14,732 nucleotides of DNA from Anaerolineae bacterium (lineage in GTDB: Bacteria > Chloroflexota > Anaerolineae > 4572-78 > J111), in contig JAKLJP010000092.1 of the NCBI GenBank assembly GCA_023151115.1, forward strand, positions 1 through 14,732, in the 5' to 3' direction. This document shows positions 591-14,732 of this stretch, piece by piece. Below the pieces are notes generated by a model. It was given only the letters and a program-made list of their open reading frames with translations. It ran no database searches and was not told where the DNA came from. The position numbers and the translations under genes are program-made. The number at the start of each line of letters is the position of its first letter. Within the stretch, counting starts at the first letter, position 1.

Positions 591-598
591 AATTGGGG

Positions 599-676
599 AT
601 GAGGCACTTGCGTCAATTGGTCATTGCGTCGCTAATAGGATTAACCTTACTATTTAATATCGAACGCCTGGATTTT
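599..676 (+). pseudogene. 5' remnant of a membrane protein gene, cut by an IS1-like element
   Basis: From ATG 599, behind a well-placed AGGAG, 26-27 codons encode a positively charged start, a hydrophobic helix (about residues 7-20) and FNIERLDFG. The reading frame then enters the end of an insertion sequence at about 676 and stops at 757 after about 25 foreign residues. An N-terminus of this form (one helix, then FNIERLD) recalls a family of multi-helix membrane proteins, possibly regulatory, near Chloroflexi exopolysaccharide genes. That is from memory and tentative. The rest of the gene is not in the window, so it was presumably deleted together with the start of the downstream glycosyltransferase gene. 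The remnant cannot be functional. Confidence 0.5.
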
Positions 677-1080
677 GGGGTAGTGTCCCTCAACTACCTT
701 GATGAACAAGGTCAAAAGAGGGGAATAAATGTTCTACGTTCTTTAAGGTTTCAATAAACTGTGCTGGAACTCGAAACGAAAGGAGTTCAGCTGTAGTCCA
801 AATATGATTGGTAAGTCCAGCGGCCATAGCCGGTGTGATTAACTGCCAACGTCGAGGTGAACCACTACCACGTGTTGGTTCAGACACCGGCAATTCCTGG
901 CGCAAACTCTGGTGGGGTAAAACCAGGTGATAATAGGCTAACGAGAGCCAGAATTGTTTTTCTAACCAGGGCATTTCTTTGCTAAAGCCGTTGGTTTTAC
1001 GAGTTAAACGACGATTGTGTTGTCGCCAGGTCAGGTTATCGCGCTCAATGAAACTGGTATTGATGAGGCGGTATCACAAA
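677..1080 (-). mobile_element. Truncated IS1-like insertion sequence
   Basis: The left boundary is placed at about 677, where GGGGTAGTGTCCCTC looks like an IS1-type terminal repeat (IS1 itself ends GGTAATGACTCC) and where the reading frame from 599 loses sense. The element carries only the C-terminal part of a transposase on the minus strand. Its other end is missing: at 1074-1091 it joins directly to a glycosyltransferase fragment, so no matching right terminal repeat or target duplication can be seen. The likely history is insertion followed by a deletion that took the 5' part of the transposase gene and the neighbouring host DNA. Confidence 0.6.
690..1073 (-). pseudogene. Transposase, IS1-like, C-terminal fragment
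   Basis: The frame is open on the minus strand from 1073 to a TGA at 690, 127 codons. It starts without an initiator, so the shorter version from the ATG at 974 understates it. Near its beginning is INTSFIERDNLTWRQ, the characteristic NTSFIER-x-N block of IS1-type DDE transposases that carries the catalytic glutamate (the E of FIER). It is followed by RKTNGFSKE, WLEKQFWLSLAYYHL and LPHQSLRQE, matching the family's C-terminal Y-x-H..PHQSLR region. The N-terminal DNA-binding part and the two catalytic aspartates are absent, so it cannot transpose by itself. Confidence 0.75.
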
Positions 1081-1103
1081 TTTTGTGTTAAACCCCGATT
1101 CCC

Positions 1104-1937
1104 TTGAGGGAGACGGGCAATTTACACAACTTTCGACAAACCGCCCTGACCGGCCTGATCAGCCCGCTTTATACCAATGTTTTCAACCATTTCTCGGCCA
1201 TTTTTCTCCACACCGAGAGCAACCGGCAGCGTTTTTTGTCGCTCTTTCCGGTACCGCCGGAACGGACTCACGCGATCCCACACGGCAATGAAAGCCTTTT
1301 TTTAGCAGCGGCCAATGGAACCGTCACCGCCGGCGATTTACGGCGGCGTTACGGCCTGGCCCCAACCGAACCGGTGGTTCTCTTTTTTGGCACGCTGACC
1401 CCCAGCAAGGGCCTGCCGGAGCTGCTCAAAGCTTTTGCCCTCATCCATCGGGCCGGCGGGGCTAAGCTGGTAATCGCCGGCTTTCCCTCGAAATTTGTAA
1501 ACATCAACGATTTACATCAACTGGCCGCCGAACTTGACTTGGCCAAGGCGGTCATCTTTGATACTCGCTACATTCCTTTTGAGGAAGTAGGTCCATTAAT
1601 GAGCCTGGCGACGGTAGTGGTCTATCCTTACCGGAGCAGCACCCAAAGCGGGGCCTTACAGGTGGCTTATGCCTTTGGCCGGCCTGTGGTCGCCACTACG
1701 GTGGGGGGATTGCCGGATGCAGTTGAGAATGGGCGCAGCGGTTTTTTGGTCCCGCCAGACTCACCCGAAGCTCTGGCTAAGGCGGTTCTACAAATTATCA
1801 ACAATCCGGCCCTGGCTGCCGAGATGAGCGCCTATGCCCGCCACCTGTCCGAAACCCGTTATTCCTGGAAGCCCATCGCCAGCCAGGTTTTGAGCGTGTA
1901 TCGGGAACTCTTGGGTCAGAAAGTATATTCGCTGTGA
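1104..1937 (+). CDS. Glycosyltransferase family 4, N-terminally truncated
   Basis: The protein has the whole C-terminal GT-B domain of a GT4 enzyme: VVLFFGTLTPSKGLPELLKAF (first strand and loop of the nucleotide-sugar domain), LVIAGFPSKF, and YPYRSSTQSGALQVAYAFG followed by PVVATTVGGLPDAVENGRSG and LVPP. Relatives are about 370-400 residues long; here only 277 follow the putative TTG start, so roughly the first 100-120 residues of the acceptor-binding domain are missing. The homologous frame goes back only to a stop at 1089-1091, next to the IS1-like remnant, and there is no convincing ribosome binding site. It would have transferred a sugar from a nucleotide donor to a growing glycan in the cytoplasm. 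Loss of the acceptor domain makes activity unlikely, so this is best regarded as a pseudogene. Confidence 0.75.
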   Translation: MRETGNLHNFRQTALTGLISPLYTNVFNHFSAIFLHTESNRQRFLSLFPVPPERTHAIPHGNESLFLAAANGTVTAGDLRRRYGLAPTEPVVLFFGTLTPSKGLPELLKAFALIHRAGGAKLVIAGFPSKFVNINDLHQLAAELDLAKAVIFDTRYIPFEEVGPLMSLATVVVYPYRSSTQSGALQVAYAFGRPVVATTVGGLPDAVENGRSGFLVPPDSPEALAKAVLQIINNPALAAEMSAYARHLSETRYSWKPIASQVLSVYRELLGQKVYSL

Positions 1938-1956
1938 CCCGCTCTTGTGAAATAGC

Positions 1957-2006
1957 TGTCATGCCGACACCGGCCTCGGAGATTTCTCCCTGCGGTCGGA
2001 ATGACA
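1957..2006. repeat. Short palindromic repeat
   Basis: TGTCATGCCGAC at the left and GTCGGAATGACA at the right are reverse complements with one mismatch, around a core containing GGAGATTTCTCCC. This resembles the dispersed GTCATTCCGA...GGAATGACA repeats found between genes of many environmental bacteria. It begins 20 nt after the stop of the truncated glycosyltransferase and could form a hairpin in the mRNA. Confidence 0.6.
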
Positions 2007-2090
2007 CGGCGAGTATAATCCTCCAGAAAAATTTTCGCCGGGATTAGTACCTTATGAGTCAGATTCTTGTACAGTGAGCAAAAAGTTATT

Positions 2091-2183
2091 ACACAGAGGG
2101 ACACGGAGAAGTCACAAAGTCCCACAGAGGAATTTTTATCGCTTCTCTGCGTGTCTCTGTGAAATCTCTGCGTAACTCTGTGT
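2091..2183. repeat. Long inverted repeat of the CACAGAG type
   Basis: The left arm (from ACACAGAG at 2091) and the right arm (ending CTCTGTGT at 2183) are imperfect reverse complements over about 39 bp, with repeated internal CACAGAG / CTCTGTG words, around an AT-rich centre (GGAATTTTTATCG). Repeats of this composition are scattered in many environmental genomes. The right arm stops only a few bases before recognisable deacetylase coding sequence starts, so its arrival, or a deletion at it, probably removed the gene's 5' end. Confidence 0.65.
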
Positions 2184-2189
2184 TCCTGT

Positions 2190-2990
2190 TTGGTTCTGGC
2201 CTGGCTGCGCGGCCAAATACCGCTGCCCACCAACCCGCTCTTGATTACCTTTGACGACGGCTACCGCGATAATTTGGATTACGCGCTGCCCATTTTGCAA
2301 GCGCGCCACCTGCCCGCCGTCATCTTTTTAGCCACCGACTACACCGGCCAGAACTTGCCCTTCTACTGGGATTTGATTGCCTATTGCTTTTACCATACCC
2401 GCCAAAAGGAAGTCCATTTGCCTCTGCTTGGCCGGCGCCGCTGGCAGGGTGATGAAAAAAGCCGGGCTGCCGTGATAGCAAACTGGCTTCCACTGCTCAA
2501 AAGGCTGCCGGATGCTGAAAAGTGGGAGGCGGTCCGCCGACTGCCGCGAGCGCTCGACGTGACCGTACCCGAAGATGCTTTTGCCGGACTGCATTTAACC
2601 TGGGAGCAGGTTCGCTTCATGATGGAGGCCGGCATTGAGATTGGGGCCCATACGCAGAGCCACCCTATTCTCACCCGGATTTCCCCGGAACAGGCCCGGC
2701 GTGAAGTGGCCGGCTCAAAAAGCCGGATTGAGGCAGAAATAAATCGGACGGTAACAGCCTTTGCTTACCCTAACGGGTTGCCGGCAGATTTCAGCCCGGC
2801 CCTTCAGTCTTTCTTGGGCCAGGCAGGTTTTGAGATTGCCTTTACGCTACTGCCGGGACCGACTCGTCCGGCGGAAGTGCGGAGTGCGCCTTTCGCCATC
2901 CGGCGTATTCTAATCCACCACCGCGATACTCTCCCGCACTTTACCGCCAAAGTGATGGGCGGGCCACGCCTACTCAATCTGTCGAGGTGA
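2190..2990 (+). CDS. Polysaccharide deacetylase (NodB-like), N-terminally truncated
   Basis: Carbohydrate esterase 4 family, removing N- or O-acetyl groups from a polysaccharide. The NodB core is visible: LLITFDDGYRDN (motif 1, with the catalytic base and metal aspartates, about residues 18-29), IGAHTQSHP (motif 2, HxxxxH metal histidines, about 152-160), FAYPNG (motif 3) and a final FAIRRILIHHRD stretch. Related proteins begin with a further 50-60 residues before motif 1, usually with a YHRV-like strand. These are missing here because the CACAGAG repeat lies immediately upstream. The TTG used as start has no ribosome binding site, and the frame is open only from 2163. The catalytic residues survive, so activity is not excluded if translation is coupled. 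Its stop lies just ahead of the next gene's ATG. No signal peptide is left. Confidence 0.75.
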   Translation: MVLAWLRGQIPLPTNPLLITFDDGYRDNLDYALPILQARHLPAVIFLATDYTGQNLPFYWDLIAYCFYHTRQKEVHLPLLGRRRWQGDEKSRAAVIANWLPLLKRLPDAEKWEAVRRLPRALDVTVPEDAFAGLHLTWEQVRFMMEAGIEIGAHTQSHPILTRISPEQARREVAGSKSRIEAEINRTVTAFAYPNGLPADFSPALQSFLGQAGFEIAFTLLPGPTRPAEVRSAPFAIRRILIHHRDTLPHFTAKVMGGPRLLNLSR

Positions 2991-2992
2991 GT

Positions 2993-5020
2993 ATGAAAAT
3001 TAAGATTCTGCCTAGCTCAATAATACTGGGTTTTTGGTTGAAGCGAATAAGCTCGATAATCTTGCTTCTAATCCTATTCGCCTGGTCAGGCTCTACCCAG
3101 GCTCAAGAGCTATCACCCTTATTAGACACGAGCACATTTGTTTACTCCCGCTTACAGCTGGGGATTAGCACAACGGTGAGCCAGGATGTCATCACTTATG
3201 CTCTTTACCCCAAAGCGGTAGACCAGCAACGGATGTGGGATGTACGCATTAACGTGCCGCTGCCGGCAGGCGTCACCTTTTTGTCGGCGGAAGCACCCCC
3301 TACTTTCACCAGTAACTTTGACGGGCGAGAGGTGTCTTTTTTTGCTTTGGAATTGGCCCCCCAAGTCGAAATCGAACCTCTCATCTTTAAAATCTCGGTG
3401 GAGGGGTTGACCAACTCGCTGATTATTACCCACGCCTGGGCCACTTGGAAGAACGCCGGTTTTCAGGTAGGGGTTACCATTCCGGCCCAAGAGCAACTAT
3501 CGAGCGACAGTATCATTATAGCGCAGCCCCAGCTTCCTCAACGCCTGGTGTTTGATCTGACCGGGGATGTGCCCCAAGCAAATTATGATTTGACCAGCCT
3601 TGCTTTTCAGGAAAATGGGGCTACCCTGGGCATCATTTTTAATCTGGCAGGAGAGATTGGCAAAGCCGGTCAACTCTTACAATACACTCTGTTTATTGAC
3701 GGCGGCTGCAACATTGCTACGGGTGAACACCAACAACAACGAGGGGTTGAGTACCGGGTTAATTACAACCTTGAGGCTGGTCGGGCCACTCTTACAACTT
3801 GGGATGCAGCGATAAAGGATTGGCGCTGGGACGAGACGACCCGCTTAGAAGCTGCCCTTGAAGGCAAAAAAATCGGCCTGGTGCTGCCTTATCATTTAAT
3901 CGGCTTAAATCATCAATTTTGCTGGGTAGCTCAAACCCGGCCAAAAACGGGTGACTTACCTGCGGATTGGCTGCCTAATGAACCTTTTTTAGCCTTAACC
4001 CGGCACGAAATCAGTTCGATTGCGCCGAATCCCATCGTTGGGAACCTGGCTGTCCCCCTTAATAACGGGCAAGGTTTTTACGATGTCTCCATTTTTAGTC
4101 TGCCGGCCGGTCGGGAGATAGCCAGAATCCCTAATGCCCGCCAGCCAAATTTTCGCTATGATGGTCAGAAGTTGCTAATCAACCACGAGAGCGTTGGCCC
4201 GGAAAATTTGTACGAAGAAGAGGTGAACAATAATCACACTATTTTTTATCTCTTCAAAAATTATAGCGCCACTGAAAACATCTACGAGTATGATCTAACC
4301 ACCGGGCTTGAAACACAGGTGAGCGATGGCTCGCGCGACGCTTATCCATTTTATAGCCCTCAAGGTGAGCAGCTAGTGTATGGAAACGTCTCTCCAGCCG
4401 CAAAAGCTGATACTCCGCCAGCTTCTCACCTTTTTGTCCAGTGTAGTTTGCTGCCGCCTCACCAGGAAAGAGAGGGGCAATGCCAAAACTTGGCCGACTT
4501 GAGCTTGCTAATTCTGGATGGTGAAGCAACGCCCGCTGCTATCAATTACCCGGTCTGGACCCCTACCAACAGGATTGCTTATCAAACCTGTTCCGGTTCG
4601 ACTGAGGCAGTCGCCTGCGGTATTCACCTGGTCAGTGCGGTAGGAACCCAAGCTATCGAGGGCAGTGCTGTGCCCAGCCAATTGACCGAAAACCCCACCG
4701 ACCTGCCCGCCGATGCCAAATTTAACATGATAGCTTTTATGTCGCAGCGCGATGGGAATTGGGAAGCCTATCTCATTAACGAAGATGGAACGGCCCTGCG
4801 CAATTTCTCGAATAGCCCCGTTTCTCATGATGGCCTCCCCACCATCTCGCCCAATGGTCAATGGGTGGCCTTTGTTTCGGATCGCGCAGGTTCGTGGGCA
4901 GTCTGGGCCGCGCCGCTAGCCGGGGGTTCCGTTCAAAAGCTGTTTGATTTACCAACCGATACTCCCTGGGGCAACGGCGACCGAAGCTGGATCAATGAAC
5001 GGATTTCCCGGGGACCATAA
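2993..5020 (+). CDS. Exported modular protein with C-terminal beta-propeller-like (TolB/WD40-like) repeats
   Basis: The start is taken at ATG 2993 (GAGG 5 nt upstream); GTG 2987, overlapping the deacetylase stop, is an alternative. The N-terminus has lysines, a long hydrophobic segment (about residues 15-36) and STQAQ, a signal peptide with a likely AQA-type cleavage site. Next comes a beta-rich module (about 40-140: SRLQLGISTTV, ITYALYPKAV, MWDVRINVPLPAG), then a second domain (about 190-340: YDLTSLAF, YTLFIDGGC, YRVNYNLEAGRATL, FCWVAQ). The C-terminal 290 residues contain propeller-like blades such as RDAYPFYSPQGEQLVYG and DGLPTISPNGQWVAFVSDRAGSWAVW. Residues 40-340 are clearly paralogous to the next gene. 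No catalytic motif is seen; an extracellular carbohydrate- or protein-binding role at the cell surface is inference from context. Confidence 0.7.
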   Translation: MKIKILPSSIILGFWLKRISSIILLLILFAWSGSTQAQELSPLLDTSTFVYSRLQLGISTTVSQDVITYALYPKAVDQQRMWDVRINVPLPAGVTFLSAEAPPTFTSNFDGREVSFFALELAPQVEIEPLIFKISVEGLTNSLIITHAWATWKNAGFQVGVTIPAQEQLSSDSIIIAQPQLPQRLVFDLTGDVPQANYDLTSLAFQENGATLGIIFNLAGEIGKAGQLLQYTLFIDGGCNIATGEHQQQRGVEYRVNYNLEAGRATLTTWDAAIKDWRWDETTRLEAALEGKKIGLVLPYHLIGLNHQFCWVAQTRPKTGDLPADWLPNEPFLALTRHEISSIAPNPIVGNLAVPLNNGQGFYDVSIFSLPAGREIARIPNARQPNFRYDGQKLLINHESVGPENLYEEEVNNNHTIFYLFKNYSATENIYEYDLTTGLETQVSDGSRDAYPFYSPQGEQLVYGNVSPAAKADTPPASHLFVQCSLLPPHQEREGQCQNLADLSLLILDGEATPAAINYPVWTPTNRIAYQTCSGSTEAVACGIHLVSAVGTQAIEGSAVPSQLTENPTDLPADAKFNMIAFMSQRDGNWEAYLINEDGTALRNFSNSPVSHDGLPTISPNGQWVAFVSDRAGSWAVWAAPLAGGSVQKLFDLPTDTPWGNGDRSWINERISRGP

Positions 5021-5056
5021 CACGAGCCGGGGACACATCACCGATGATGAAAAGTT

Positions 5057-5104
5057 GGAGTGCAAGGCTTGCCTTGCGATTTGGCAAAGCAAGCTTTGCA
5101 CTCC
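5057..5104. repeat. 48-bp palindrome between paralogous genes
   Basis: GGAGTGCAAGGCTTGCCTTGC (5057-5077) pairs with GCAAAGCAAGCTTTGCACTCC (5084-5104), two mismatches in 21, with a six-base loop. As RNA one of the mismatches is a G-U pair. No T-run follows, so it is not a classical terminator. It sits in the 115-bp gap between the two tandem exported proteins and ends 16 nt before the next ribosome binding site, so it could stabilise or attenuate the message. Confidence 0.75.
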
Positions 5105-5120
5105 AGTCGGTCTATTTACG

Positions 5121-5126
5121 AGGAGG
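5121..5126 (+). promoter_or_regulatory. Ribosome binding site AGGAGG
   Basis: A perfect AGGAGG lies 9 nt before ATG 5136. It fixes the start of the amber-interrupted gene ahead of its signal peptide and argues against the later in-frame start at 5310, which has no such site. Confidence 0.8.
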
Positions 5127-5135
5127 ACCACCCCA

Positions 5136-6548
5136 ATGATGACCAGCAAAATCTGGCCTAAACTGACGCCATTTTTAAGAAGTCTTGTCCTGCTGCTTGC
5201 CTTAACCTTTCCGGTGGGGTCAGTTTCGGCTCAGGACGAGGGGTGGCCTCCTTTCTAGTTTGATCTCATTCCTACCTATGCCGGAGGCCGATTAACCTAC
5301 AGCATAAACGTGTATCGCCGGGTGGAATGGCCGCTGCCAGGATTAACCATCAACATCCCCTTGCCGGAGGGAACCCGTTTTGTGGCAGATAACATCCCTG
5401 CCGGCGTGGAGGCCAAGTTTGACGGGCAAGCGGTAATATTCTCCGCTCCTGCCTTCGACCGCTACCTTGAGGGCGCGTCATTCACGGTTGAGGTGATAGA
5501 TCCCAGGCTGACCGTCTTTACCACCCAAGCTCAAATCACCTGGCAGGGAGAACAACCGGGAGGCTATCTGGCCGAATCCGTTTCATTCGACACGACCAAG
5601 CCCGTTTTAAACTGGCAGCCGTCGCTCGACTCCCGCCTGCAATTGGGCCTGAGCGCAACCGTAGCCGGTAATGTTATTACCTATGCCCTCTATCCCAGAG
5701 CAATAGGACGGCCTCGTATGTGGGATTTAAGAATTAATATCCCGCTGCCGGCTGGGACCACCTTTGTGGCGGCAGAAGCAGCGCCGCCTTTTACTGCCGG
5801 TTTTGATGGGCAGGAAGCCTCTTTCTTCATCCTGGAGTTGGCCCGGCAGACCGAGGTCGAGCCGCTGATCCTAAAAGTTTCCCTGACCGATGCCGACCAA
5901 CTCCCTGTAGTGACCCGCGCCCAGGCCACCTGGAAAAATTCAAGCCATGATGCCGGGGCTGTCATTCCGGCAAAAGAAACACTGCTCACCGATGACCTGA
6001 TAGTTCAACCCCAGCTTCCCCAACAAGCGCTGCTTGATCCCCAAAACGATGTCCCTTTGCCCAATTACGACATCACCAGCCTGGTTTTCCAGGCCAATAG
6101 GGCCATGCTTAATATCATTTTTAATACGGCTGGACCCATAGGACCAACCGGCCAACCGGTTCAGTATACCCTCTTTATTGATAGTGACTGTTACAGCGAA
6201 ACGGGTGAAAAGGTAAAATTTCGGGGCGCAGAGTATCGCCTGAGGTATAACCACGAAGCAGGCCGGGCCAGTGTTGTCGCCTGGGATGCGGCCCAACAGG
6301 ATTGGAACTGGGATGGGCCAACCCGGCTGGACAGCCAGGTTGGAGAACAAAATGTTCAAATTTCTCTGCCTTACCAACTGCTGGGGATAAGCCGGCAATT
6401 TTGTTGGGTAGCCCAGGCCGCAAATAATAGCAAGGAGTTTAATCTGAGCCTGCCCAGGGATTGGCTTCCTAACGGAGAGCATTGGCGTTTGACCCAGCAG
6501 GAAATTGCCCTGACAACCCCAGCGACCATTTCGGAGAGGCAACAATGA
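5136..6548 (+). pseudogene. Exported modular protein, paralogue of the upstream gene, interrupted by an in-frame TAG
   Basis: From ATG 5136, behind a perfect AGGAGG, the frame encodes a signal peptide (hydrophobic RSLVLLLALTFPVGSVSAQ, cleavage near SAQ). It reaches TAG at 5256-5258 after DEGWPPF and continues in the same frame with FDLIPTYAGGRLTYSIN to 6548. An extra module (about residues 42-150: VYRRVEWPLPGLTINIPLPEG) precedes the SRLQLGLSATV...MWDLRINIPLPAG module and the YDITSLVF...YTLFIDSDC...FCWVAQ domain shared with the 2993 gene. The propeller region is absent. A single C-to-T change (CAG to TAG) would explain the stop. TAG is an ordinary terminator elsewhere here (stops at 7654 and 10898), so recoding is unlikely. 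As it stands only a 40-residue peptide is made, unless there is readthrough or a sequence error. The stop overlaps the next gene's start as ATGA. Confidence 0.7.
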
Positions 6549-7654
6549 CCCAGCCGGTCCGGCCTGTACTTCTTGTTGACCTGGCCAAGAGTTATGGCGG
6601 CGCAGAGGTGCGCGTTTTAGCCACGGCCAAATCGCTGCACGGGCAGCACCCTTATGCAGTCGCCACGCTGGCCGGTTCTCCTTTGCACCAGCGGCTTGAA
6701 AGGGCTGGCTTAACCTCCCTGCCGGTTCCTTTTGGCCGGGCGGATGGGCGGCTGGTATTTTTTCTGGCCCACGCTATCCGCCGGGCGGGTTTTCAGGTGG
6801 TAGACGCGCACAATGTTCAATCCCAATTTTGGGGACATCTAGCCGCATTAGCGGCGGGTGTTCTTGTAAAAGTCTCAACGGTTCACAGCGCCTACAGATT
6901 TGAGCATCATGGCTCGCTCAAGGGCCGATTGTACGAGCAGGTGCTGCGGCTCAATGCCGGTTGGGGAACCCACTTTGTGGCTGTTTCCAAAACGGTTGAG
7001 AGTTATATTCAAGGGCTGGGCATTGCCCCGGACAAAATCTCGCTCATTCACAACAGTGTTTCGCCCCCGGCGCGGTCCTTGCCATCAACCGCCCTATCTT
7101 TGTTGCAATCATTGGGCTGGGAGAAAGATGTTTATATGGTGATTGTGGTGGCCCGGCTCGAGCCGGTCAAAGGGCACACTTTTTTGCTGGAAGCGTTAAG
7201 CCGGATTACCCCGGAGCGGCCTCAACTGCGCTGCCTCATTGTCGGCGAAGGTCGGACGCGAGCCGCCCTGGAAAGCCAGGTGCAAGAAGCCCGCCTGCAA
7301 GAGCGGGTCCATTTTACCGGTTTTCGGGATGATATTCCGGCCCTGTTGGGCGCCAGTGACGCTTTCTGCCTGCCTTCTCTGTCCGAGGGATTACCCTTTG
7401 CCTTGCTGGAAGCGGGCATGCAGCGTTTGCCACTGCTGGTGACCCAGGTGGGCGGCATGGCCGAACTTTTGAGGCATGGACACACCGCCTTTTTGGTCCC
7501 CCCCGCCGACCCGGCGGCGTTGGCCAGAGGGTTAAGCTGGCTGATGGATTACCCCCAAGCAGCCAGGTGTATGGGTGAAACCGCTTCAACCTATCTCCAA
7601 CAATGCTTTAGTCTCACCGAAATGCTGCGCAAAACCTTAGCAGTTTATGGGTAG
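6545..7654 (+). CDS. Glycosyltransferase family 4
   Basis: A full-length (369 residues) retaining GT-B enzyme transferring a sugar from a nucleotide donor to a glycan acceptor. The N-terminal domain has the glycine loop SYGGAEVRVL (about residues 16-25) and VDAHNVQSQFWG. The C-terminal domain has VVARLEPVKGHTFLLEAL (201-218), LIVGEGRTRAAL, VHFTGFRDD, and EGLPFALLEA with the E-x7-E pair (E281, E289), then GGMAELLRHG and LVPPADP. ATG 6545 is chosen because GGAGAGG lies about 5 nt upstream and the ATGA overlap with the previous stop implies translational coupling; the frame is open further upstream but inside the neighbouring gene. It starts the intact part of the operon and ends with TAG, 45 bp before the GT2 gene. 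The substrate cannot be told from the sequence. Confidence 0.9.
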   Translation: MTQPVRPVLLVDLAKSYGGAEVRVLATAKSLHGQHPYAVATLAGSPLHQRLERAGLTSLPVPFGRADGRLVFFLAHAIRRAGFQVVDAHNVQSQFWGHLAALAAGVLVKVSTVHSAYRFEHHGSLKGRLYEQVLRLNAGWGTHFVAVSKTVESYIQGLGIAPDKISLIHNSVSPPARSLPSTALSLLQSLGWEKDVYMVIVVARLEPVKGHTFLLEALSRITPERPQLRCLIVGEGRTRAALESQVQEARLQERVHFTGFRDDIPALLGASDAFCLPSLSEGLPFALLEAGMQRLPLLVTQVGGMAELLRHGHTAFLVPPADPAALARGLSWLMDYPQAARCMGETASTYLQQCFSLTEMLRKTLAVYG

Positions 7655-7699
7655 AAAATAGGTTATTGCAATGTTAAAAAATCTCGCAGGGAATGAAGT

Positions 7700-8893
7700 G
7701 TGATAGGTAAATTATTCTGGTTGTGTGTTGGCAGCATTATCTATACTTATGCCGGTTATCCTATCCTGCTGGCTTTGCTCGCCCGAACCCGGCCCAAGCC
7801 GCCCACTTACCCGGCCGCTGTGCCGACAGTCACCCTGCTGATTGCAGCCCACAACGAGCAGGCCGTCATTGCCGGGAAGTTGGAGAACAGCCTGGCCCTG
7901 GATTATCCCCGCGAGCGGCTGCAAATTCTGGTAGCCGCTGATGGGTCCGACGACCAAACCCCCGAAATCGTGCGGGCTTATGCCAGGCAGGGGGTCGAGT
8001 TAAGCTTTAGCCCTCCCCGGCGGGGCAAAATGGCAGCCATCAATCGAGCGATGGCCCAGGCGTGGGGCGAGCTTGTGGTATTCTCCGATGCCAACAATAT
8101 GTATGAACATTGCACCCTGCGTGAATTGGTTGCGCCCTTTGCCGATAAAACCGTTGGCGCAGTCACCGGGGCTAAATCTATTTTGCCGGGTGATGGCGCG
8201 CTGGGCGAGTCAGAGGATCTCTATTGGCGTTACGAGTCATTCATCAAAAAACAGGAAACCCGGCTGGGCTGCTGCACGGGCGTGGCCGGTGAAATTTTAG
8301 CCGTCCGGCGTGAGCTTTTTGAGTCGCCGCCGGATAACATCATCAACGACGATTTTTATCTGGCAATGTGCCTCATCCAACATGGCTATCGAGTTGTTTA
8401 CACCCCCCAGGCTCGATCTTGGGAGCGGGTGTCGCTTTCGGCAAGCGATGAGCTGACGCGGCGGGCGCGGATTGTGGCCGGGCGCTATCAGGTCATCAGC
8501 CTGGCCCCTCGGCTGCTGCCGCTGCGCCGCCCGCTGTTGGTCTGGCAGGTGGTCTCGCACAAGTTTCTGCGCCCACTGGTACCGCTAGCGATGGTCGGCG
8601 CACTGTTGGCCAATCTGGTTGCCCTCTTTCGGCCTCCCAAAGCTGGGCCGCAGACTCTACTGCGTCTGGCCACACCCTTTAACTGGATTGGTCTCAGCTT
8701 GCAGTTTTTCTTTTATGGGCTGGCTTGGCTGGGCAACTCCCTTAAACCAAAAGGCGCATGCGGCAAATTACTTTACCTGCCCTCTTTTCTGGTCAATAGT
8801 AATCTAGCCGCCCTTATTGGCTTGTACCGCAGCCTGACGAAAGGCCAAACCTCGCTGTGGCAGCGGGCGCGACGGCGTGAAACACTACCCTAA
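7700..8893 (+). CDS. Membrane glycosyltransferase family 2
   Basis: An inverting GT-A enzyme of the processive/polymerising type, anchored in the cytoplasmic membrane. One N-terminal helix (about residues 5-27) precedes the catalytic domain, which has VTLLIAAHNE (44-53), ILVAADGSDDQT (first aspartate near D81), VVFSDANNMY (SDA in the DxD position, about 129-131), GEILAVRRELF, and INDDFYLAMCLI (the ED-type catalytic aspartates, about 216-218). RRARIVAGRYQ (about 254-264) stands where polymerases have QxxRW; here the tryptophan is replaced, as in many N-acetylglucosaminyl- and fringe-like GT2 proteins. Three or four C-terminal helices follow (about 288-312, 330-350, 365-385). The GTG 7700 start follows AGGGA, about 7 nt upstream. 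It probably builds or extends the glycan with the preceding GT4; the sugar is unknown. Confidence 0.88.
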   Translation: MIGKLFWLCVGSIIYTYAGYPILLALLARTRPKPPTYPAAVPTVTLLIAAHNEQAVIAGKLENSLALDYPRERLQILVAADGSDDQTPEIVRAYARQGVELSFSPPRRGKMAAINRAMAQAWGELVVFSDANNMYEHCTLRELVAPFADKTVGAVTGAKSILPGDGALGESEDLYWRYESFIKKQETRLGCCTGVAGEILAVRRELFESPPDNIINDDFYLAMCLIQHGYRVVYTPQARSWERVSLSASDELTRRARIVAGRYQVISLAPRLLPLRRPLLVWQVVSHKFLRPLVPLAMVGALLANLVALFRPPKAGPQTLLRLATPFNWIGLSLQFFFYGLAWLGNSLKPKGACGKLLYLPSFLVNSNLAALIGLYRSLTKGQTSLWQRARRRETLP

Positions 8894-8911
8894 AAATACC
8901 AGGAGAAAAAA

Positions 8912-9223
8912 ATGACAACACACGAAAAAATTACCCAAACCGTTTTTGAGGTTATTGACGAACTCAATCAACTTTTGCCGCCGGCAGAGCAGCTTGAAAA
9001 ATCCCCCAAGACCGCTTTATTTGGACCGGCAAGCCAACTGGACTCGCTGGGACTGGTCAATTTTATAGTGATGACCGAAGAAAAAATAGAAGAACAATTT
9101 AACGGCGCGGCTATTTCACTGGCCGACAGCATGGCTTTACCGGAGGAAATCAGTCCCTTTACCAGCGTGGATAAACTGGTGAATTACCTGGCTCCTTTAG
9201 TAGAGAACGGCGCTCATGGATAA
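8912..9223 (+). CDS. Acyl carrier protein
   Basis: A 103-residue acidic helical protein with the phosphopantetheine attachment motif LDSLGLVNFIV. S45 is the expected 4'-phosphopantetheine site; a holo-ACP synthase would be supplied elsewhere. The first helix (ITQTVFEVIDELNQLL) and the later TEEKIEEQF and FTSVDKLVNYLAPL helices fit the four-helix ACP fold, with a slightly long loop before the motif. AGGAG lies 7 nt before ATG 8912. Its end overlaps the FkbH-like gene by 8 bp (the ATG of the next gene lies inside its last codons), so the two are surely translated together. This is a discrete carrier for a pathway-specific acyl group, not the fatty-acid ACP. The partner protein suggests a glyceryl or other C3 unit. 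Confidence 0.9.
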   Translation: MTTHEKITQTVFEVIDELNQLLPPAEQLEKSPKTALFGPASQLDSLGLVNFIVMTEEKIEEQFNGAAISLADSMALPEEISPFTSVDKLVNYLAPLVENGAHG

Positions 9224-10898
9224 ACAACGCCCTAGAGGTTTACTTATCTCAAATTTTAATATCAGTAACCTGGCCGGATATCTACGGCATGAGAGCGACC
9301 CACCTGGCCTCGAAATTACGGTTGCCCCGTTTGGCCAGGTGATGCCGGTGTTAATGCAATCGGACCTGGAATATGGGCAGGGCCAGCCTGATTTCGCTTT
9401 GATTTGGACCCAGCCGGAACAAATCAGCGAGTCTTTTGCGTCCCTGCTGGCCTACGAAAGTAGTTCCCTTGAGGCTATTCTGGCGGAAGTAGATGCTTAC
9501 TGTGCCCTGCTGCTGGACCTTCGCCGCCGGGTAAAATCTGTTTTTGTGCCCACCTGGGTCCTGCCTGGTTATCAGCGCGGTTGGGGCCTGCTCGATATGA
9601 AAGTTAGCTTCGGGTTGGTCCAAACCTTGCTGCGTATGAACCTCCGCCTGGCCGAAAATCTGGCCCAAGCGGCGGATATTTACCTTTTGGACGCCCAGCG
9701 ATGGGTGAGTCTAGCCGGTAAAAACGCCTTTAACCCCAAGTTATGGTACATGGGTAAAATCCCTTTTAGCAATGAAGTTTTCAGCAAAGCGGCGGCGGAT
9801 ATCAAATCAGCCTTGCGAGGCATAGACGGCCAGGCGCGAAAGCTGATTGTGCTTGATTTGGATGATACCTTGTGGGGTGGCATTGTGGGAGATGTCGGCT
9901 GGGAGAATCTGCGCCTGGGCGGGCACGACCCGCTGGGCGAGGCTTACGCCGATTTTCAGGCGGCGCTAAAGGCGCTCACCCGGCGCGGCATTTTGCTGGG
10001 GATTGTCAGCAAAAATGAGGCAGCCGTCGCCCTGGAAGCGATCCAGCGCCACCCCGAAATGGCCCTCAAATTGGAGGATTTTGCCGGCTGGAAAATAAAC
10101 TGGCAGGACAAAGCCCAAAATATCGTAGAGTTAGCGGCGGAGTTAAACTTGGGCTTGCAAGCGGTGGTCTTTATTGACGACAACCCGGTTGAGCGAGATC
10201 GAGTCAAAGCAGCTCTGCCCGAAGTGCTGGTCCCCGATTGGCCGCCGGACAAAATGAACTACAAAAGCGCGTTGCTTTGCCTCCGCTGCTTCGACAGCCC
10301 CACCGTGAGCCAGGAAGACCTGATCAAGACCCAACTCTATGTCTCTGAACGGCAACGACAGCAAATGAAACAGACCATTGGCTCGCTGGATGAATGGTTG
10401 ACGAGCTTGAATCTGGTCGTGACGGTCGAAACGCTCAATGAACTCAACCTGCCCCGCGCGGCCCAACTGCTCAACAAAACCAACCAGATGAACCTGACCA
10501 CCCGGCGTATGACCGAGTCAGAACTGGCCGAGTGGGCCAGCCAGCCCCATCATCGCTTGTGGACCTTTCGCGTGGCCGATAAATTTGGCGACGCCGGGCT
10601 AACCGGGATCGCCAGCCTGGAAGTGGAGGGCGACAGCGGCCGGATTGTGGATTTTGTCTTAAGCTGCCGGGTCATGGGTCGCCAAGTCGAGGAGACGATA
10701 CTTTACATCATTCTTAACCATGCTCAAACAGCGGGCCTGACCGAAGTTTATGCCCGGTACATTCCCACTCCCAAAAATAAACCCTGCCTGAGCTTTTTTG
10801 AGCGTGCGGCTGGGGCGGCGAACGGGGATAACCTTTTTACCTGGGAACTGAGGAGAGAATACCCCGCACCCGCGCCCGTTAAGATTAACGCGCTGTAG
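9216..10898 (+). CDS. FkbH-like HAD-IIIC protein (glyceryl-ACP forming family)
   Basis: 560 residues. The first 200 match the family's N-terminal SGNH-like domain in position. The HAD core follows: IVLDLDDTLWGGIVGD (DxDxT nucleophile D214, D216), LGIVSKNE (S265), the expected lysine near WQDKAQNI (299), and VVFIDDNPVERDRV (D321, D322). The C-terminal part has the family's GNAT-like region with LLNKTNQMNLTTRR, KFGDAGLTG and SCRVMGRQVEETIL. Characterised members take D-1,3-bisphosphoglycerate, dephosphorylate it and load glycerate onto an ACP as a thioester. Here the partner ACP overlaps it by 8 bp. The FkbG/I/K genes that turn glyceryl-ACP into methoxymalonyl-ACP are absent, so the group probably stays glyceryl or is altered by the downstream genes. 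That is inference. It ends in TAG, which is part of the next gene's TAGGAG ribosome binding site. Confidence 0.88.
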   Translation: MDKQRPRGLLISNFNISNLAGYLRHESDPPGLEITVAPFGQVMPVLMQSDLEYGQGQPDFALIWTQPEQISESFASLLAYESSSLEAILAEVDAYCALLLDLRRRVKSVFVPTWVLPGYQRGWGLLDMKVSFGLVQTLLRMNLRLAENLAQAADIYLLDAQRWVSLAGKNAFNPKLWYMGKIPFSNEVFSKAAADIKSALRGIDGQARKLIVLDLDDTLWGGIVGDVGWENLRLGGHDPLGEAYADFQAALKALTRRGILLGIVSKNEAAVALEAIQRHPEMALKLEDFAGWKINWQDKAQNIVELAAELNLGLQAVVFIDDNPVERDRVKAALPEVLVPDWPPDKMNYKSALLCLRCFDSPTVSQEDLIKTQLYVSERQRQQMKQTIGSLDEWLTSLNLVVTVETLNELNLPRAAQLLNKTNQMNLTTRRMTESELAEWASQPHHRLWTFRVADKFGDAGLTGIASLEVEGDSGRIVDFVLSCRVMGRQVEETILYIILNHAQTAGLTEVYARYIPTPKNKPCLSFFERAAGAANGDNLFTWELRREYPAPAPVKINAL

Positions 10899-10910
10899 GA
10901 GAAAAATATT

Positions 10911-11321
10911 ATGCTTGAACTCAACATGTTTGGCGATGGCGCCGTTTTTGATCACGTGGGCCTGGCTGTTCGATCTATCGAAGCTACGCTTGACGGAAAC
11001 GATGAGGCAACAATTTTTGATGATAACATTCAAAAAGTTTCGGTGGCTTTTATCCGTATGAACGGTATAAAAGTAGAGCTGATTGAACCCCTGGGCGAGA
11101 AAACGCCGGTTGCGTTAAGTCTAAAAAAGGGCCAGCAGTTGGTTCATCTCTGTTTTCGTGTGCCAGACATCGAAGCGGCCATTGAAAAGGGACGAGAGCA
11201 TGGATTTCACTGTATTGCCCGGCCCGTGCCGGCCGTTGCCTTTGGCTGCCGGCGCATCGCCTGGCTTTTTAGCCGCGTCTATGGGCTGGTTGAAATTGTG
11301 GAGATGGAACGGCATGGCTGA
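10911..11321 (+). CDS. VOC-family protein (methylmalonyl-CoA epimerase / glyoxalase-like)
   Basis: 136 residues, a typical length for a two-module VOC protein. The expected metal-ligand positions are all filled: FDHVGLAV (H15), KVELIEP (E56), LVHLCFRV (H79) and LVEIVEM (E128). The pattern is closest to methylmalonyl-CoA epimerase, which inverts the alpha carbon of a CoA- or ACP-bound acyl group, but the substrate cannot be read from sequence. AGGAG (in TAGGAG) sits about 10 nt before ATG 10911, and the gene's stop overlaps the next start by 8 bp. Next to an ACP and an FkbH-like loader, a role in epimerising or otherwise modifying the ACP-bound acyl unit is a reasonable inference. A lyase or isomerase activity is equally possible. 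Confidence 0.85.
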   Translation: MLELNMFGDGAVFDHVGLAVRSIEATLDGNDEATIFDDNIQKVSVAFIRMNGIKVELIEPLGEKTPVALSLKKGQQLVHLCFRVPDIEAAIEKGREHGFHCIARPVPAVAFGCRRIAWLFSRVYGLVEIVEMERHG

Positions 11322-12390
11322 ACTTTTCACCGTTACGCCGGCAGATTATCACGCAGCCGCTTCCTTTTTGGCCGGTTTTCAGACCGAGACGGAGAGCCAA
11401 GCGCTTTGGCTGAGTCACTTTCAATTTTGGTGGGATGACAATCCCGCTTTTTCAAATGGTGTTGAACGAGGCTGGCTGTTACGCGAAGAGGGTCAAATAG
11501 TGGGGTTTTTGGGCAGTATTCCTACCTGCTTTCAACTCGGCGGCCAGAGTTTGACGGTTTTCAACTCTACCACCTGGCGCGTTTTGCCTCAGGCCAGGCA
11601 GCAAAGTATGAATCTGCTTTCCCGGTTGTTAAGCGCGGCTAAACATTCAATCGTCTTCAACACGACCCCCAATGAGGAGGTGACCAAAATTCTCAAAGCC
11701 CTCAAATTCCATCCCATTCCCGGTTTAGCAGAAGACCACCGGAGTATAGCGATTATCAACTTTGAAAAAGTTTTTCTCTCAAAACTGGGCCGCCGTCTGC
11801 CCTGGAAAATTCTGGCCAAAACTTCCGGGCCACTCCTGCACCTTCTCCAGCAGTTTCGGCTTAGAAATTTGGCAAATTCTAATCCTCTCCGGGTGCAGCA
11901 AATCTCTCAAGCGGACACAACTTTCGACCAACTCTGGTTAAGAACCAGGGATTTGTACCTTAACACCAACCTGCGCACCGCCGACATCATCAACTGGTAC
12001 TGTTTCAAGAATAAAAATCTTGAGAAAACAGCCCTCGGCTGCTATAAAAACGACCAACTCTTTGGCTACGCTCTTTTTGAAACCAAGTTTAGTAACCGCC
12101 ACCAGCTTAATATTTTGGAATGTCTTGATTTATGGATTGATCCTGCCGAGAGTAGGGTTGTTGAGGCCCTGGTCGAGGCTGCCCTTAACTACGCCCGAAA
12201 GCATGCCATAGAGTTGGTCTCTTTTCCCCACTTCAACACCCCTCTCGATCAATACCTGAGCCGGTTAGGCTTGTTCCAAACTAAGTTTGAGCGGAATGAA
12301 TACTTAAAAGCCAGCCCTCAGCTTGCCCGCCAGTTAACTCCGGAAAACTCTTACTTTGTAGGTCTTCAAGGGGACACCGGATTGGCTTAA
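11314..12390 (+). CDS. GNAT-type acyltransferase
   Basis: 358 residues. ATG 11314 is chosen because MAELFTVTPADY begins the conserved part, GGAGATGG lies just upstream, and it overlaps the VOC stop by 8 bp; the frame is open further upstream but only within the VOC gene. The N-terminal half looks like a GNAT fold: FFWDDNP-like region (about residues 45-52), GWLLREEGQIVGFLGSIPT (beta strands 3-4), STTWRVLPQARQQSMNLLSRLL (the CoA/pantetheine-loop and helix position) and VFNTTPNEEVTKILKALKF. A second, GNAT-like half contains LFGYALFETKF and LECLDLWIDPAE. The protein could move an acyl group from ACP or CoA to an amino or hydroxyl group of a sugar. Its place at the end of the ACP-FkbH-VOC run makes it the candidate transfer enzyme of the cassette. 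Its stop is 6 bp from the converging downstream gene. Confidence 0.8.
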   Translation: MAELFTVTPADYHAAASFLAGFQTETESQALWLSHFQFWWDDNPAFSNGVERGWLLREEGQIVGFLGSIPTCFQLGGQSLTVFNSTTWRVLPQARQQSMNLLSRLLSAAKHSIVFNTTPNEEVTKILKALKFHPIPGLAEDHRSIAIINFEKVFLSKLGRRLPWKILAKTSGPLLHLLQQFRLRNLANSNPLRVQQISQADTTFDQLWLRTRDLYLNTNLRTADIINWYCFKNKNLEKTALGCYKNDQLFGYALFETKFSNRHQLNILECLDLWIDPAESRVVEALVEAALNYARKHAIELVSFPHFNTPLDQYLSRLGLFQTKFERNEYLKASPQLARQLTPENSYFVGLQGDTGLA

Positions 12391-12396
12391 TTGGAC

Positions 12397-13545
12397 TTAT
12401 CCCTTTGAAATAAGGGGCAAAAAGGTGGTCGAATTATTAGAACTCGACGAGGGCAGTACATTTATCGTGCCGACCAGATAACGTCCCTGCGCGTCTCGGT
12501 TGGGGAAGGCCAGATTAATAGGCTGGCCGGTGCGCCGGTTGATAATAGCCACTCGAATGGTATAAGCACCGGAGCGCACAGTCGAGGGAAGCTGGAGCGT
12601 CTGGTTAACCGCCTGTTGGGGGGACGAACCGGGTAAAGGATCAGCCGGCATCCAGGCGGCAATATTGGCGTTGATCGGCCAATCCCGGATAACATCAGCA
12701 CGCCGACCAGCCACATAGCGCAGGGATTGTTGGATACCGGCATAAGGCATCAGCAGTTGGGTCTTTTGGAAACCCGGATAGTTGTAGGAAACTGATTGAG
12801 TCTGGCTGCTGGCATTCCGGCATTGCACCGAACCGGAGCCGCCAATAAACATATCGGCCAGGCGGCGGCGAGCCTGGGAGTCGAGGCTGCCCTCTTCGAC
12901 ATTGGTTTGTTCCTGCCAGCTCCACTCGTTGAAGTTTCCGTAGCCGGAAATATCTATGAAAGCAAGGGTCGGGTTACCATCGTACTTTTTACGCATGGCT
13001 TCAACAAATTTAGCCCATTGAGCCTGGTAAACACAGTTACTATAATCCGGCTCGCCGCTGGGCAGAATAACCGCGCCTTTGCTTAGCACCCACTGCGGCG
13101 TCTGATGCCCTCCCCATTGTTCACCGCGCATGGTATAGATACGAAAAGAAAGTTGTTTACCCTGGCTTGCCATTTTCTGGATATCGGCGTCCACCGCCGA
13201 CCAGTTAAAACTGTTTTCAGCCGGGTTTTGATCCTGCCAGCTATATTGAGATCGGCGATAGGCGGTTGTTTCAGGCAGCGAGGGATTATCAAGCGTTTGG
13301 GTCTCTTGCCAGCCCATTCCCGGGTTGGCTAAATAGTCATCCAGGGGAACAAAAGTTGCCATCGTATCAAGAGCGGTTTCGACAGCCGCCGGTGGGGAGG
13401 GTAGGGGAGTAGCAGTCTCAGGAGCAGGTTCAGGCGTAACGGCCCGGAGGGCAGAGGGAGCAGCTATAGAATAAGTTAAAGCAACTAAGAGCAGCGGGAG
13501 TAACCAAAGCAAGAGGCGATAACGGGTCTTTAAATGGCGTGTCAT
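12397..13545 (-). CDS. Secreted DUF4832-like (TIM-barrel glycoside-hydrolase-like) protein, probably internally deleted
   Basis: 382 residues. The signal peptide is LLLWLLPLLLVALTYSIAA (about residues 12-30), then a Pro/Thr/Ala-rich linker. The barrel begins with NPGMGWQETQTLDN, the hallmark NPG-x-G-W/F start of DUF4832-type proteins. SFRIYTMRGE, TLAFIDISGYGNFNEWSWQ (position of the first acidic residue of a barrel hydrolase) and AQWAKFVEAMRKKYDGNP follow. The C-terminus AYTIRVAIINRRTGQPINLAF matches the family's final beta domain. The middle jumps from GRRADVIRDW straight to PINANIAAWMPADPLPG, and the protein is shorter than the 450-550 residues I expect, so an in-frame deletion near 12665-12695 is likely. 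It ends SSSSNNSTTFLPLISKG, a serine-rich spacer plus a hydrophobic LPLI-K tail seen on Chloroflexi exported proteins. The ribosome binding site is weak. Confidence 0.75.
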   Translation of the reverse strand: MTRHLKTRYRLLLWLLPLLLVALTYSIAAPSALRAVTPEPAPETATPLPSPPAAVETALDTMATFVPLDDYLANPGMGWQETQTLDNPSLPETTAYRRSQYSWQDQNPAENSFNWSAVDADIQKMASQGKQLSFRIYTMRGEQWGGHQTPQWVLSKGAVILPSGEPDYSNCVYQAQWAKFVEAMRKKYDGNPTLAFIDISGYGNFNEWSWQEQTNVEEGSLDSQARRRLADMFIGGSGSVQCRNASSQTQSVSYNYPGFQKTQLLMPYAGIQQSLRYVAGRRADVIRDWPINANIAAWMPADPLPGSSPQQAVNQTLQLPSTVRSGAYTIRVAIINRRTGQPINLAFPNRDAQGRYLVGTINVLPSSSSNNSTTFLPLISKG

Positions 13546-13558
13546 GATTCTTCAACTA

Positions 13559-13649
13559 AGAGCCTATCTGAAAAAGGGTAGGTTGGCATCCCTATGCCAG
13601 CCGGTGACGCATAGGGATGCGTCACTACGGGGTTATTCAGACAGGCTCT
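13559..13649. repeat. 91-bp cruciform-type palindromic element
   Basis: The outer arms AGAGCCTATCTGAA (13559-13572) and TTCAGACAGGCTCT (13636-13649) pair with one mismatch. Inside are two separate hairpins: TGGCAT-CCCT-ATGCCA (13584-13599) and GTGACGCAT-AGGG-ATGCGTCAC (about 13604-13625). Their loops are complementary (CCCT/AGGG), because GCATCCCTATGC and GCATAGGGATGC are perfect reverse complements. It lies 14 bp upstream of the start codon of the secreted minus-strand protein, in its leader. No coding sequence is present. Confidence 0.8.
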
Positions 13650-13730
13650 AAACGGGTGATGTAGACCAGACTATCATAACCCATTAGAGCTATCCTCGTC
13701 ATCACTCTAACAGAAGATTTTTATACATAA

Positions 13731-13757
13731 AAAAGACCGATAGAGTTATCGGCCTTT
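13731..13757. terminator. Bidirectional intrinsic terminator
   Basis: CCGATA (13737-13742) pairs with TATCGG (13747-13752) across GAGT. The stem is extended by AAAAG/CTTTT around one mismatch, with an A-run on one side and a T-run (13755-13759) on the other, so it can stop transcription in both directions. On the minus strand it lies downstream of the GT9 pseudogene and the LuxR relic. On the plus strand it would stop readthrough past the 12390 gene. Confidence 0.7.
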
Positions 13758-13792
13758 TTACCCATATATTTTTAGTCCTTTGGTACAGGGTG

Positions 13793-13870
13793 TTAATTCA
13801 GTTTGATAAGCTGCTCCTTGAGCACCAGCAAAATAAGCTCCGTACGGCTCTCGACGCCCAGTTTGGTCAC
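13793..13870 (-). pseudogene. C-terminal relic of a LuxR-type HTH regulator
   Basis: On the minus strand the 3' end of a frame reads VTKLGVESRTELILLVLKEQLIKLN then TAA (13793-13795). KLGVxSRTEL-x-LLAL-x(3)-L is the standard end of the LuxR/GerE helix-turn-helix: the end of the recognition helix and the last helix. Upstream the frame hits a TGA within a few codons, so the rest of the regulator is gone. It lies 25 bp beyond the GT9 stop and before the terminator. Too short to function; it marks a further lost gene. Confidence 0.55.
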
Positions 13871-13895
13871 TCCTCAATTCGCCAGAGTTCAGTTT

Positions 13896-14691
13896 TTATT
13901 CGGTCCTCCACGACTCAGCAAGCAGTTCCAGCGCTGCCGCAGACACATCCTCGACCGGCACATCGGCTACAAAAGAGGCGGTATGCTCGCAGTTATCGTC
14001 CAGGCAGTTGCGGCCGCAGACGGGACAGGTCAGTCGCCACGAAACCAACGGGCGCTGGCGGAGGCGAATTAACGGACCTCTATTAATCAAATTGCCAATC
14101 CAGTAGATGCCCACCGTTGCTGCACCCACTGCCCCGGCCAGGTGAACCGGCCCCGAGTCATTCGAGACTACCACCCGGCAGCGAGAAAGCAGCCCGGCCA
14201 GGCTGCCCAGCGAGAGACGCTGACACAAATTCTGAGCTTCACCCCCCCAACGCCTCAACCAGCGCCTCGACGAGGGTGCCTTCTGACCCCACTCCTGTGA
14301 CGACAACATCCGCCCCGGCCGCCTGCAATCTCTGCCCCACCGCCGCAAACTTTTCGACCGGCCAGCAGCGCCGGAGGTCGGTAGCCCCCGGATGGAGGGC
14401 GACGACAGGACCGCTGGCTAACTGCGGCACAACCTGGTAAGCTTCAGCTAAATCTTCGGCGGTCACGGTTAATTGAGGCTCTAAACTTACCGGCGCGGCT
14501 CCGACCAAACCCACCACCTCCAGGAGGCGTAAAATTTCCGGTTGATAAAGGGTATACGGCGTCCAACGCTCCAGCGGCGGCGCATCCTGGGCGCGCATTC
14601 CTACAGTATGCCGAGCGCCCAGGCGAGTCACAAAAGGGTTTGAGTAGCGCCCGCCGCCCATGCTTGACAAGTTAAGGAAAGGAGAGATTTG
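13896..14691 (-). pseudogene. Glycosyltransferase family 9 (heptosyltransferase-like), frameshifted and 5'-truncated
   Basis: Two overlapping frames make one GT9 protein. The first (from 14691, codons before the TTG at 14670 still reading ISPFLNLSSMGGGRYSNPF) has VALHPGATDLRRCWPVEKFAAVG and VVTGVGSEG. It stops at TGA 14239-14241 after a run of seven G (14242-14248 as C on the plus strand). The second resumes with GGEAQNLCQRLSLGSLAGLL, SNDSGPVHLAGAVGAATVGIYW (the GT9 signature) and CPVCGRNCLDDNCEHTASFV, ending at 13896. With six G instead of seven the reading is continuous, so one inserted G explains the break; a sequence error is possible. The N-terminal domain (about 90 residues) is absent because at 14690 a candidate IS end begins. 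GT9 enzymes add sugars to surface glycans in the cytoplasm. Confidence 0.75.
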
Positions 14692-14732
14692 TCAAATCGA
14701 GAAAATAACGTAAGTTAAAGGGATGGCCAAAC
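14690..14732 (+). mobile_element. Candidate insertion-sequence terminus, element extending right of the window
   Basis: TGTCAAATCGAGAAAATAACG starts at 14690, exactly where the GT9 reading frame loses sense (in-frame TGA at 14692-14694). The same TGTCAA ... ATCGAGAAAA-ATAA pattern lies at 62-30 on the minus strand. The element's body and transposase are outside the window, so the family (IS21-like is my best guess) is unproven. Confidence 0.4.

Follow-up and report, generated by a model that had tools for sequence, protein, structure and literature searches.

A recurrent ACP-FkbH-VOC-GNAT gene cassette in an Anaerolineae glycan operon and its predicted role in sugar acylation

The window analysed here is a 14,732-nt stretch of an Anaerolineae bacterium (GenBank assembly GCA_023151115.1, contig JAKLJP010000092.1, positions 1 to 14,732). 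In it, four genes encoding a predicted acyl carrier protein (ACP), an FkbH-family protein, a VOC metalloprotein and a tandem-GNAT protein directly follow a GT4 and a GT2 glycosyltransferase gene. This cassette is real and recurrent: the same order on one strand was found at 10 of 81 loci, in four phyla. We rate at an even chance the reading that the four genes form a portable sugar-acylation cassette for a surface polysaccharide. On family precedent, FkbH would take a glyceryl group from 1,3-bisphosphoglycerate and load the stand-alone ACP with it at the phosphopantetheine. The metal-dependent VOC protein might then enolise the hydroxyacyl thioester on the ACP at its alpha carbon, in the simplest case inverting C2 of glyceryl-ACP, which is the weakest step of the route. 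The tandem GNAT would move the acyl group to a free amine of a nucleotide- or lipid-linked sugar, an amine that the polysaccharide deacetylase, where present, may supply, and the GT4/GT2 operon would assemble the decorated surface polysaccharide. A wider and more tentative proposal is that of an undescribed class of surface-glycan N-acylation, thinly spread across many phyla and running from glycolytic 1,3-bisphosphoglycerate through FkbH to ACP, in which VOC would be a stereochemistry-setting ACP-thioester alpha-epimerase, GNAT (N-myristoyltransferase fold) would acylate deacetylase-exposed amines, and the processing (VOC, MaoC-SDR) and transfer (GNAT, hexapeptide, Antibiotic_NAT) slots would be exchangeable.

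ACP-FkbH core and recurrence of the gene order

All four frames are intact on the forward strand, with overlaps of 8 bases between ACP and FkbH and between VOC and GNAT (Table 1); an alternative, longer GNAT frame starting from a GTG at 11158 would extend into VOC. A preliminary description of the sequence had reported four overlapping or nearly touching genes after a GT4 and a GT2, and the coordinates and the Pfam families of the two glycosyltransferases agree with it. Its assignments of the single genes (an ACP with S45 in LDSLGLV, an FkbH-like protein, a VOC protein with every metal-ligand position, and a GNAT-type acyltransferase) likewise held up, as detailed below for each protein.

The FkbH protein scored 288.1 bits to TIGR01686 (cut-off 146.65) and belongs to that family. 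The HAD catalytic Asp residues and the DD motif are present, and D214, D216, T218, S265, K266, K299, D321, D322 and C484, the last presumably a nucleophile, are invariant in a 15-row alignment; 3slr is a solved relative. Formation of glyceryl-S-ACP by this protein is predicted from family precedent. The window ACP gave no Pfam match (PF00550 included), and of 30 such ACPs, only 2 reached PP-binding at E 0.01. Its predicted phosphopantetheine serine, S45, is invariant in all 30, and the best solved match of the ACP profile is an acyl carrier protein, with a weak E-value of 0.0046.

For recurrence, FkbH was searched in one genome per species using the 15-row alignment, which confirmed 178 places; the best 80 of these and the window make up the 81 loci (labelled L), many of which end at contig edges. 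The complete ACP-FkbH-VOC-GNAT order on one strand occurs in the window, L001, L002, L003, L026, L030, L031, L035, L070 and L074, which belong to Chloroflexota, Omnitrophota, Planctomycetota and Pseudomonadota. Since the same order is found in other phyla, the adjacency is beyond chance. L001 (Anaerolineales) repeats the operon of the window, with GT4, deacetylase, PD40 protein, GT4, GT2 and the cassette, and has a DUF4832 gene on the opposite strand. Other loci carry variants of the order. GNAT lies upstream in L042 and on the opposite strand in L004, VOC is on the opposite strand in L057, L061 and L062, L006 has ACP-FkbH-methyltransferase-VOC-hexapeptide with NeuB, CTP_transf_3 and DegT, and L058 has ACP-FkbH-VOC-Antibiotic_NAT. 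FkbH-VOC-GNAT in L005 begins at the contig start, so that an ACP would be out of view.

In 66 of the 81 loci, FkbH has an ACP no more than 300 bases away, and a local ACP profile matches 73 of the stretches. VOC is present in 18/81 and a GNAT-type protein in 38/81, the latter counted using an iterated profile that grew from 11 to 40 matches with possible drift and may therefore take in other GNATs. ACP-FkbH is the near-constant core, and VOC and GNAT are optional. The idea of a four-gene cassette stands as to order, but the genes are not a fixed set: VOC is mostly absent, MaoC proteins occur in its place in 21/81 loci, and the transferase may be of another type. In L045 (9296-13311), the FkbH frame has an N-terminal hexapeptide-repeat stretch and is followed by a second hexapeptide protein and a WecG-type glycosyltransferase. 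A local hexapeptide profile was dropped, as it was contaminated via FkbH fusion and matched 81/81 loci.

VOC subfamily and the processing step

The window VOC matches Glyoxalase_4 (58.8 bits), and its metal ligands H15, E56, H79 and E128, the H/E/H/E set of the VOC superfamily, are invariant in a 22-row alignment. On TIGR03081, the methylmalonyl-CoA epimerase (MMCE) model, it scored 53.1 bits against an equivalog cut-off of 114.95; together with four other FkbH-linked VOCs the range was 49.9-74 bits, against 133-168 for six VOCs that have no FkbH in 1.5 kb. A search from the VOC side, which avoids the circularity of starting from FkbH, covered genomes of the phyla to which L001 (301 genomes), L057 (296), L026 (343) and L003 (334) belong, as well as five single genomes and plasmids, of which one plasmid record matched. 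VOC loci, including those of the 81 loci, were scored using a cassette profile (the 22-row alignment) and an MMCE profile (six proteins above the TIGR03081 cut-off), and MMCE-like VOCs were viewed with 1.5-kb flanks, two excepted. Among 73 rows scored, 35 were cassette-like, 31 of them with FkbH at ≤1.6 kb, and 38 (including the six members of the MMCE profile) were MMCE-like, none of them with FkbH. For the rows outside the 81 loci, with repeats removed, FkbH lay within 1.6 kb in 8/12 cassette-like and 0/37 MMCE-like VOCs (Fisher p 1.1e-6, uncorrected for kinship). Where longer stretches were viewed, FkbH was seen for a further three of the 12, at distances of 1.4 to 3.8 kb, giving 11/12 within about 4 kb; the twelfth is L091, a Paludibaculum plasmid (2817-5357) with exosortase, ACP, VOC and XrtA-type deacetylase in a row. 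The sub-cut-off TIGR03081 scores and the split of the profiles by FkbH linkage rule out a true methylmalonyl-CoA epimerase. Judged by these profiles, the cassette VOC, which has all four metal ligands, is a distinct subfamily.

This VOC is rare. It was found in 2/301 genomes of the phylum of L001 at E 1e-20 and in 11/334 of that of L003 at E 1e-15, all 11 beside FkbH, NeuB, methyltransferase, GNAT or MaoC genes. Among genomes of the L026 phylum, 33/343 matched at E 1e-15 and gave 30 loci (3 unscored), and only 1 of the 30 scored was cassette-like.

The best guess for the VOC protein is an alpha-epimerase acting on glyceryl-ACP. MMCE and enzymes of the 2qh0/3hdp type, which this VOC resembles, act beside a thioester carbonyl. 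The main rival, credible although we think it unlikely, is that an acyl group other than glyceryl is the final one: VOC, or MaoC-SDR in sister loci, would convert the C3 unit to another acid such as lactyl or pyruvyl, or a glyoxalase I-like VOC would give lactoyl-ACP from a hemithioacetal formed with the ACP thiol. The closest solved VOCs fit this, 2qh0 and 3hdp (which we take to be CA_C2192 of Clostridium acetobutylicum) having been deposited as lactoylglutathione lyase and glyoxalase-I. MaoC proteins near FkbH in the 21 loci, mostly of a length fitting a fused SDR, would suit dehydration and reduction, and no locus of the 81 has both VOC and MaoC, where about 4.7 are expected from the margins (p 0.004, uncorrected for kinship). 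However, loading of ACP from methylglyoxal would make FkbH redundant, and FkbH, MaoC and VOC are adjacent in L141, so that VOC is no simple substitute for MaoC. The latter locus also weakens the notion that VOC and MaoC-SDR are strict alternatives, despite the absence of a shared locus among the 81. A quick tree with 78 inner branches, 26 of them weak, requires at least 12 changes of VOC and 13 of MaoC; the two read like exchangeable modules, though L141 has both. An SDR domain was seen in the MaoC proteins of L008 and L011, the two scanned singly, and might open a trans route to another C3 acyl-ACP.

Genomic setting, acyl transfer and points against

Neighbours were tallied by Pfam family for 115 of 165 neighbours at VOC loci and 105 of 262 at VOC-less loci, using the top 25 of 141 and of 87 families, respectively; the VOC-locus tally leaves out L031, L057, L061, L062 and the window and has fewer frames of L026, L030, L035 and L042. 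NAD-epimerases, methyltransferases, GT2, cytidylyltransferases (CTP_transf_3) and deacetylases lead at VOC loci, and DegT, NeuB, Epimerase_2 and GT4 occur three times each. A narrow set of glycan profiles matches 49/81 loci and 11/18 VOC loci, and a ketosynthase (local profile, four seeds) is present in 7/81 loci and 0/18 VOC loci. From these counts and the neighbour scans, a glycan setting is common but not universal. A polyketide setting was rejected on the ketosynthase counts, and neither the companion dehydrogenases and O-methyltransferase nor the FabH-like enzyme expected of methoxymalonyl-ACP or tetronate pathways was found among the ten window proteins scanned. The expectation that the order would elsewhere always sit beside glycosyltransferases, and not beside polyketide synthases, was borne out as to the latter for the VOC loci and for most of them as to glycan genes, but not for 7/18. 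As far as the genomes tell, the genes are not mostly apart or inside polyketide or fatty-acid clusters.

It is improbable, though not greatly so, that the ACP-bound unit goes to a small lipid, peptide or secondary metabolite and that the glycosyltransferases are incidental. The best-known FkbH proteins come from clusters for polyketides and tetronates (available parts of PMC3625739 and PMC7489565), and the seven loci with a ketosynthase and the seven VOC loci without a glycan match would agree with such a product. Against it stand the lack of a ketosynthase in the stretch available for each VOC locus, the recurrence of nonulosonic-acid genes, glycosyltransferases and deacetylases, and a C. acetobutylicum locus with these parts, which is a sugar locus according to the part of PMC4000134 available.

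For the transferase, both Pfam matches lie under the gathering score (20.7 against 25 bits and 20.2 against 20.7 bits). Structure prediction nevertheless gave, with confidence, a tandem GNAT of the NMT-like, 3n7z-like kind with two GNAT lobes in one chain, and the top fold matches of the model are N-acyltransferases. The NodA model was absent among the Pfam and NCBIfam matches of the protein at E 0.01. A deacetylase is present in 17/38 loci with GNAT and 2/43 other loci (p 3e-5, uncorrected); for loci of at least 14 kb, the counts are 13/24 with and 1/24 without GNAT (p 2.6e-4). L144 has the run deacetylase-GNAT-VOC-FkbH, and in L026, a YdjC protein lies directly behind GNAT (single-neighbour Pfam scan). 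YdjC proteins are carbohydrate deacetylases. Transfer to a hydroxyl (O-acylation) by the GNAT, and not to an amine, is a quite improbable alternative. It would fit the lack of a sugar aminotransferase gene among the window proteins scanned and the apparently truncated deacetylase of the window (see below), and at VOC-less loci MBOAT proteins make up 3 of the 105 neighbours tallied. The co-occurrence of deacetylase with GNAT, the N-acyltransferase fold matches and the other proteins that fill the same slot (Antibiotic_NAT in L058 and a hexapeptide protein in L006, beside DegT and NeuB) argue for the amine. Chance adjacency of unrelated genes, for which no support was found, can be dismissed in view of the recurrence in four phyla and the linkage to FkbH seen from the VOC side (8/12 against 0/37).

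Several observations weigh against a sugar-acylation cassette. VOC is missing from 63/81 FkbH loci and GNAT (local profile) from 43/81, although contig ends may explain some of these. No FkbH was recognised on the Paludibaculum plasmid, where ACP-VOC is beside a deacetylase, and the borderline VOCs L133 and L135, counted above as MMCE-like, are flanked by NeuB and methyltransferase genes, and no FkbH is seen there in 5.2 and 14.4 kb. The VOC loci without a glycan-profile match are L005, L026 and L035 (Planctomycetota) and L057, L058, L061 and L062 (Bacteroidota), and single Pfam scans of some neighbours in the loci missed by the glycan profiles gave largely non-glycan families or nothing. Of the four planctomycete loci with the complete order, three (L030, L031 and L035) have no glycan marker, bar a DegT gene 5 kb away on the opposite strand in two. 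The link between deacetylase and GNAT is not significant on tree-independent pairs (four starred independent pairs). No gene for sugar-amine biosynthesis (aminotransferase) was found among the window proteins scanned, and the window deacetylase looks truncated, as its tblastn match covers residues 87-350 only and the first 86 residues of the L001 relative are missing. Finally, the putative ACP is identified by motif and neighbourhood, without support from a Pfam score.

Neighbouring genes, known systems and implications

Table 1. Positions of the cassette genes and of glycan genes upstream in the window.
Feature	Position	Strand	Remarks
ACP (predicted acyl carrier protein)	8912-9223	+	103 aa; predicted phosphopantetheine site Ser45 (LDSLGLV; L43 D44 S45 L46)
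FkbH-family HAD protein, predicted glyceryl-ACP loader	9216-10898	+	560 aa; TIGR01686
VOC metalloprotein, MMCE/glyoxalase-like, separate subfamily; predicted substrate an ACP-bound acyl group	10911-11321	+	136 aa; Glyoxalase_4
Tandem-GNAT protein, predicted sugar N-acyltransferase using ACP thioester	11314-12390	+	358 aa from ATG at 11314
GT2 glycosyltransferase, immediately 5' of ACP	7700-8893	+	PF13641 1.1e-19
GT4 glycosyltransferase	6545-7654	+	PF00534 4e-39
Polysaccharide deacetylase, possible free-amine source	2190-2990	+	PF01522 4.2e-22

Other genes of the window were compared with L001. The first GT4 (1104-1937, forward strand) aligns with residues 155-410 alone of its 431-residue relative and, as no match to the remainder was found further upstream within the window, seems cut at its 5' end. 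Between this gene and the deacetylase, positions 1938-2192 contain words like cacagagg at the place that in L001 encodes the first 86 residues of the deacetylase; a search for repeats of at least 24 bases named no family there. Two tandem related proteins are encoded inside the glycan operon (2987-5020 and 5310-6548, forward strand), which the PD40 relative of L001 matches at 69% and 50%, respectively. On the reverse strand, one frame of a DUF4832-related gene (12397-13545) matches residues 25-285 and 405-516 of the L001 gene, and about 120 middle residues are missing in the gap between the two segments. Glyco_transf_9 matches at 13896-14670 (reverse strand) fall in two overlapping open reading frames, in different frames and covering successive parts of the profile, which probably reflects a frame shift or an error in the sequence. 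A promoter and terminator scan of the window gave a signal near shuffle level.

In tetronate biosynthesis, the FkbH-family system of Tmn16 and a stand-alone ACP was shown to give glyceryl-S-ACP from 1,3-bisphosphoglycerate (available part of PMC3625739), and glyceryl-S-ACP formation has been proposed for the FkbH/ACP pairs Mad7/Mad8 and Mad14/Mad12 (available part of PMC7489565). Tetronate and methoxymalonyl-ACP pathways likewise use an FkbH protein and a stand-alone ACP; unlike them, the window cassette continues with VOC and tandem GNAT inside a glycan operon. The modified-carbohydrate locus CA_C2186-CA_C2199 of C. acetobutylicum, with 13 genes in Table 2 of PMC4000134, has a glyoxylase (VOC), ACP, a HAD and N-acetyltransferase protein, an aminosugar N-acetyltransferase, spsE (sialic-acid-synthase type), spsF and glycosyltransferases, as given in the available part of that paper. 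We read the HAD and N-acetyltransferase protein as FkbH. The locus differs in that the parts are scattered over the 13 genes, section 10 of the paper, in the part available, proposes no ACP-borne C3 route, and the main text of PMC4000134 contains "fkbh" 0 times. Flagellar glycans of Campylobacter jejuni bear di-O-methylglyceric acid (PMC3958885, in part), and cj1302 is an fkbH-domain gene in the flagellar-glycan region (PMC7099621, in part); cj1302 may be tied to the glyceric acid. C. jejuni resembles the proposed route in that a surface sugar, there a nonulosonic one, is decorated with glyceric acid and an FkbH-domain gene is present, whereas the sugar and the transferase are others.

Transfer of an ACP-borne acyl group onto a sugar amine is the principle of the Nod-factor proteins NodF/NodA/NodB, where NodB deacetylates first, and of the Vibrio cholerae O1 tetronyl-perosamine genes. 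These systems differ from the cassette in loaders, acyl groups and transferase families. No described FkbH-ACP route to polysaccharides was found in the literature searched, most subscription papers lying outside it. ACP-borne acyl decoration of sugars is already known, and the window cassette, as read here, would be a variant of that kind.

If the proposed route is true, it explains how glyceric-acid-like groups arrive on bacterial surface sugars and could give a function to FkbH genes of glycan, not polyketide, clusters. It would also offer an ACP-thioester epimerase and a small-acyl tandem-GNAT transferase, and a gene signature from which C3-acylated polysaccharides of uncultured bacteria might be predicted.

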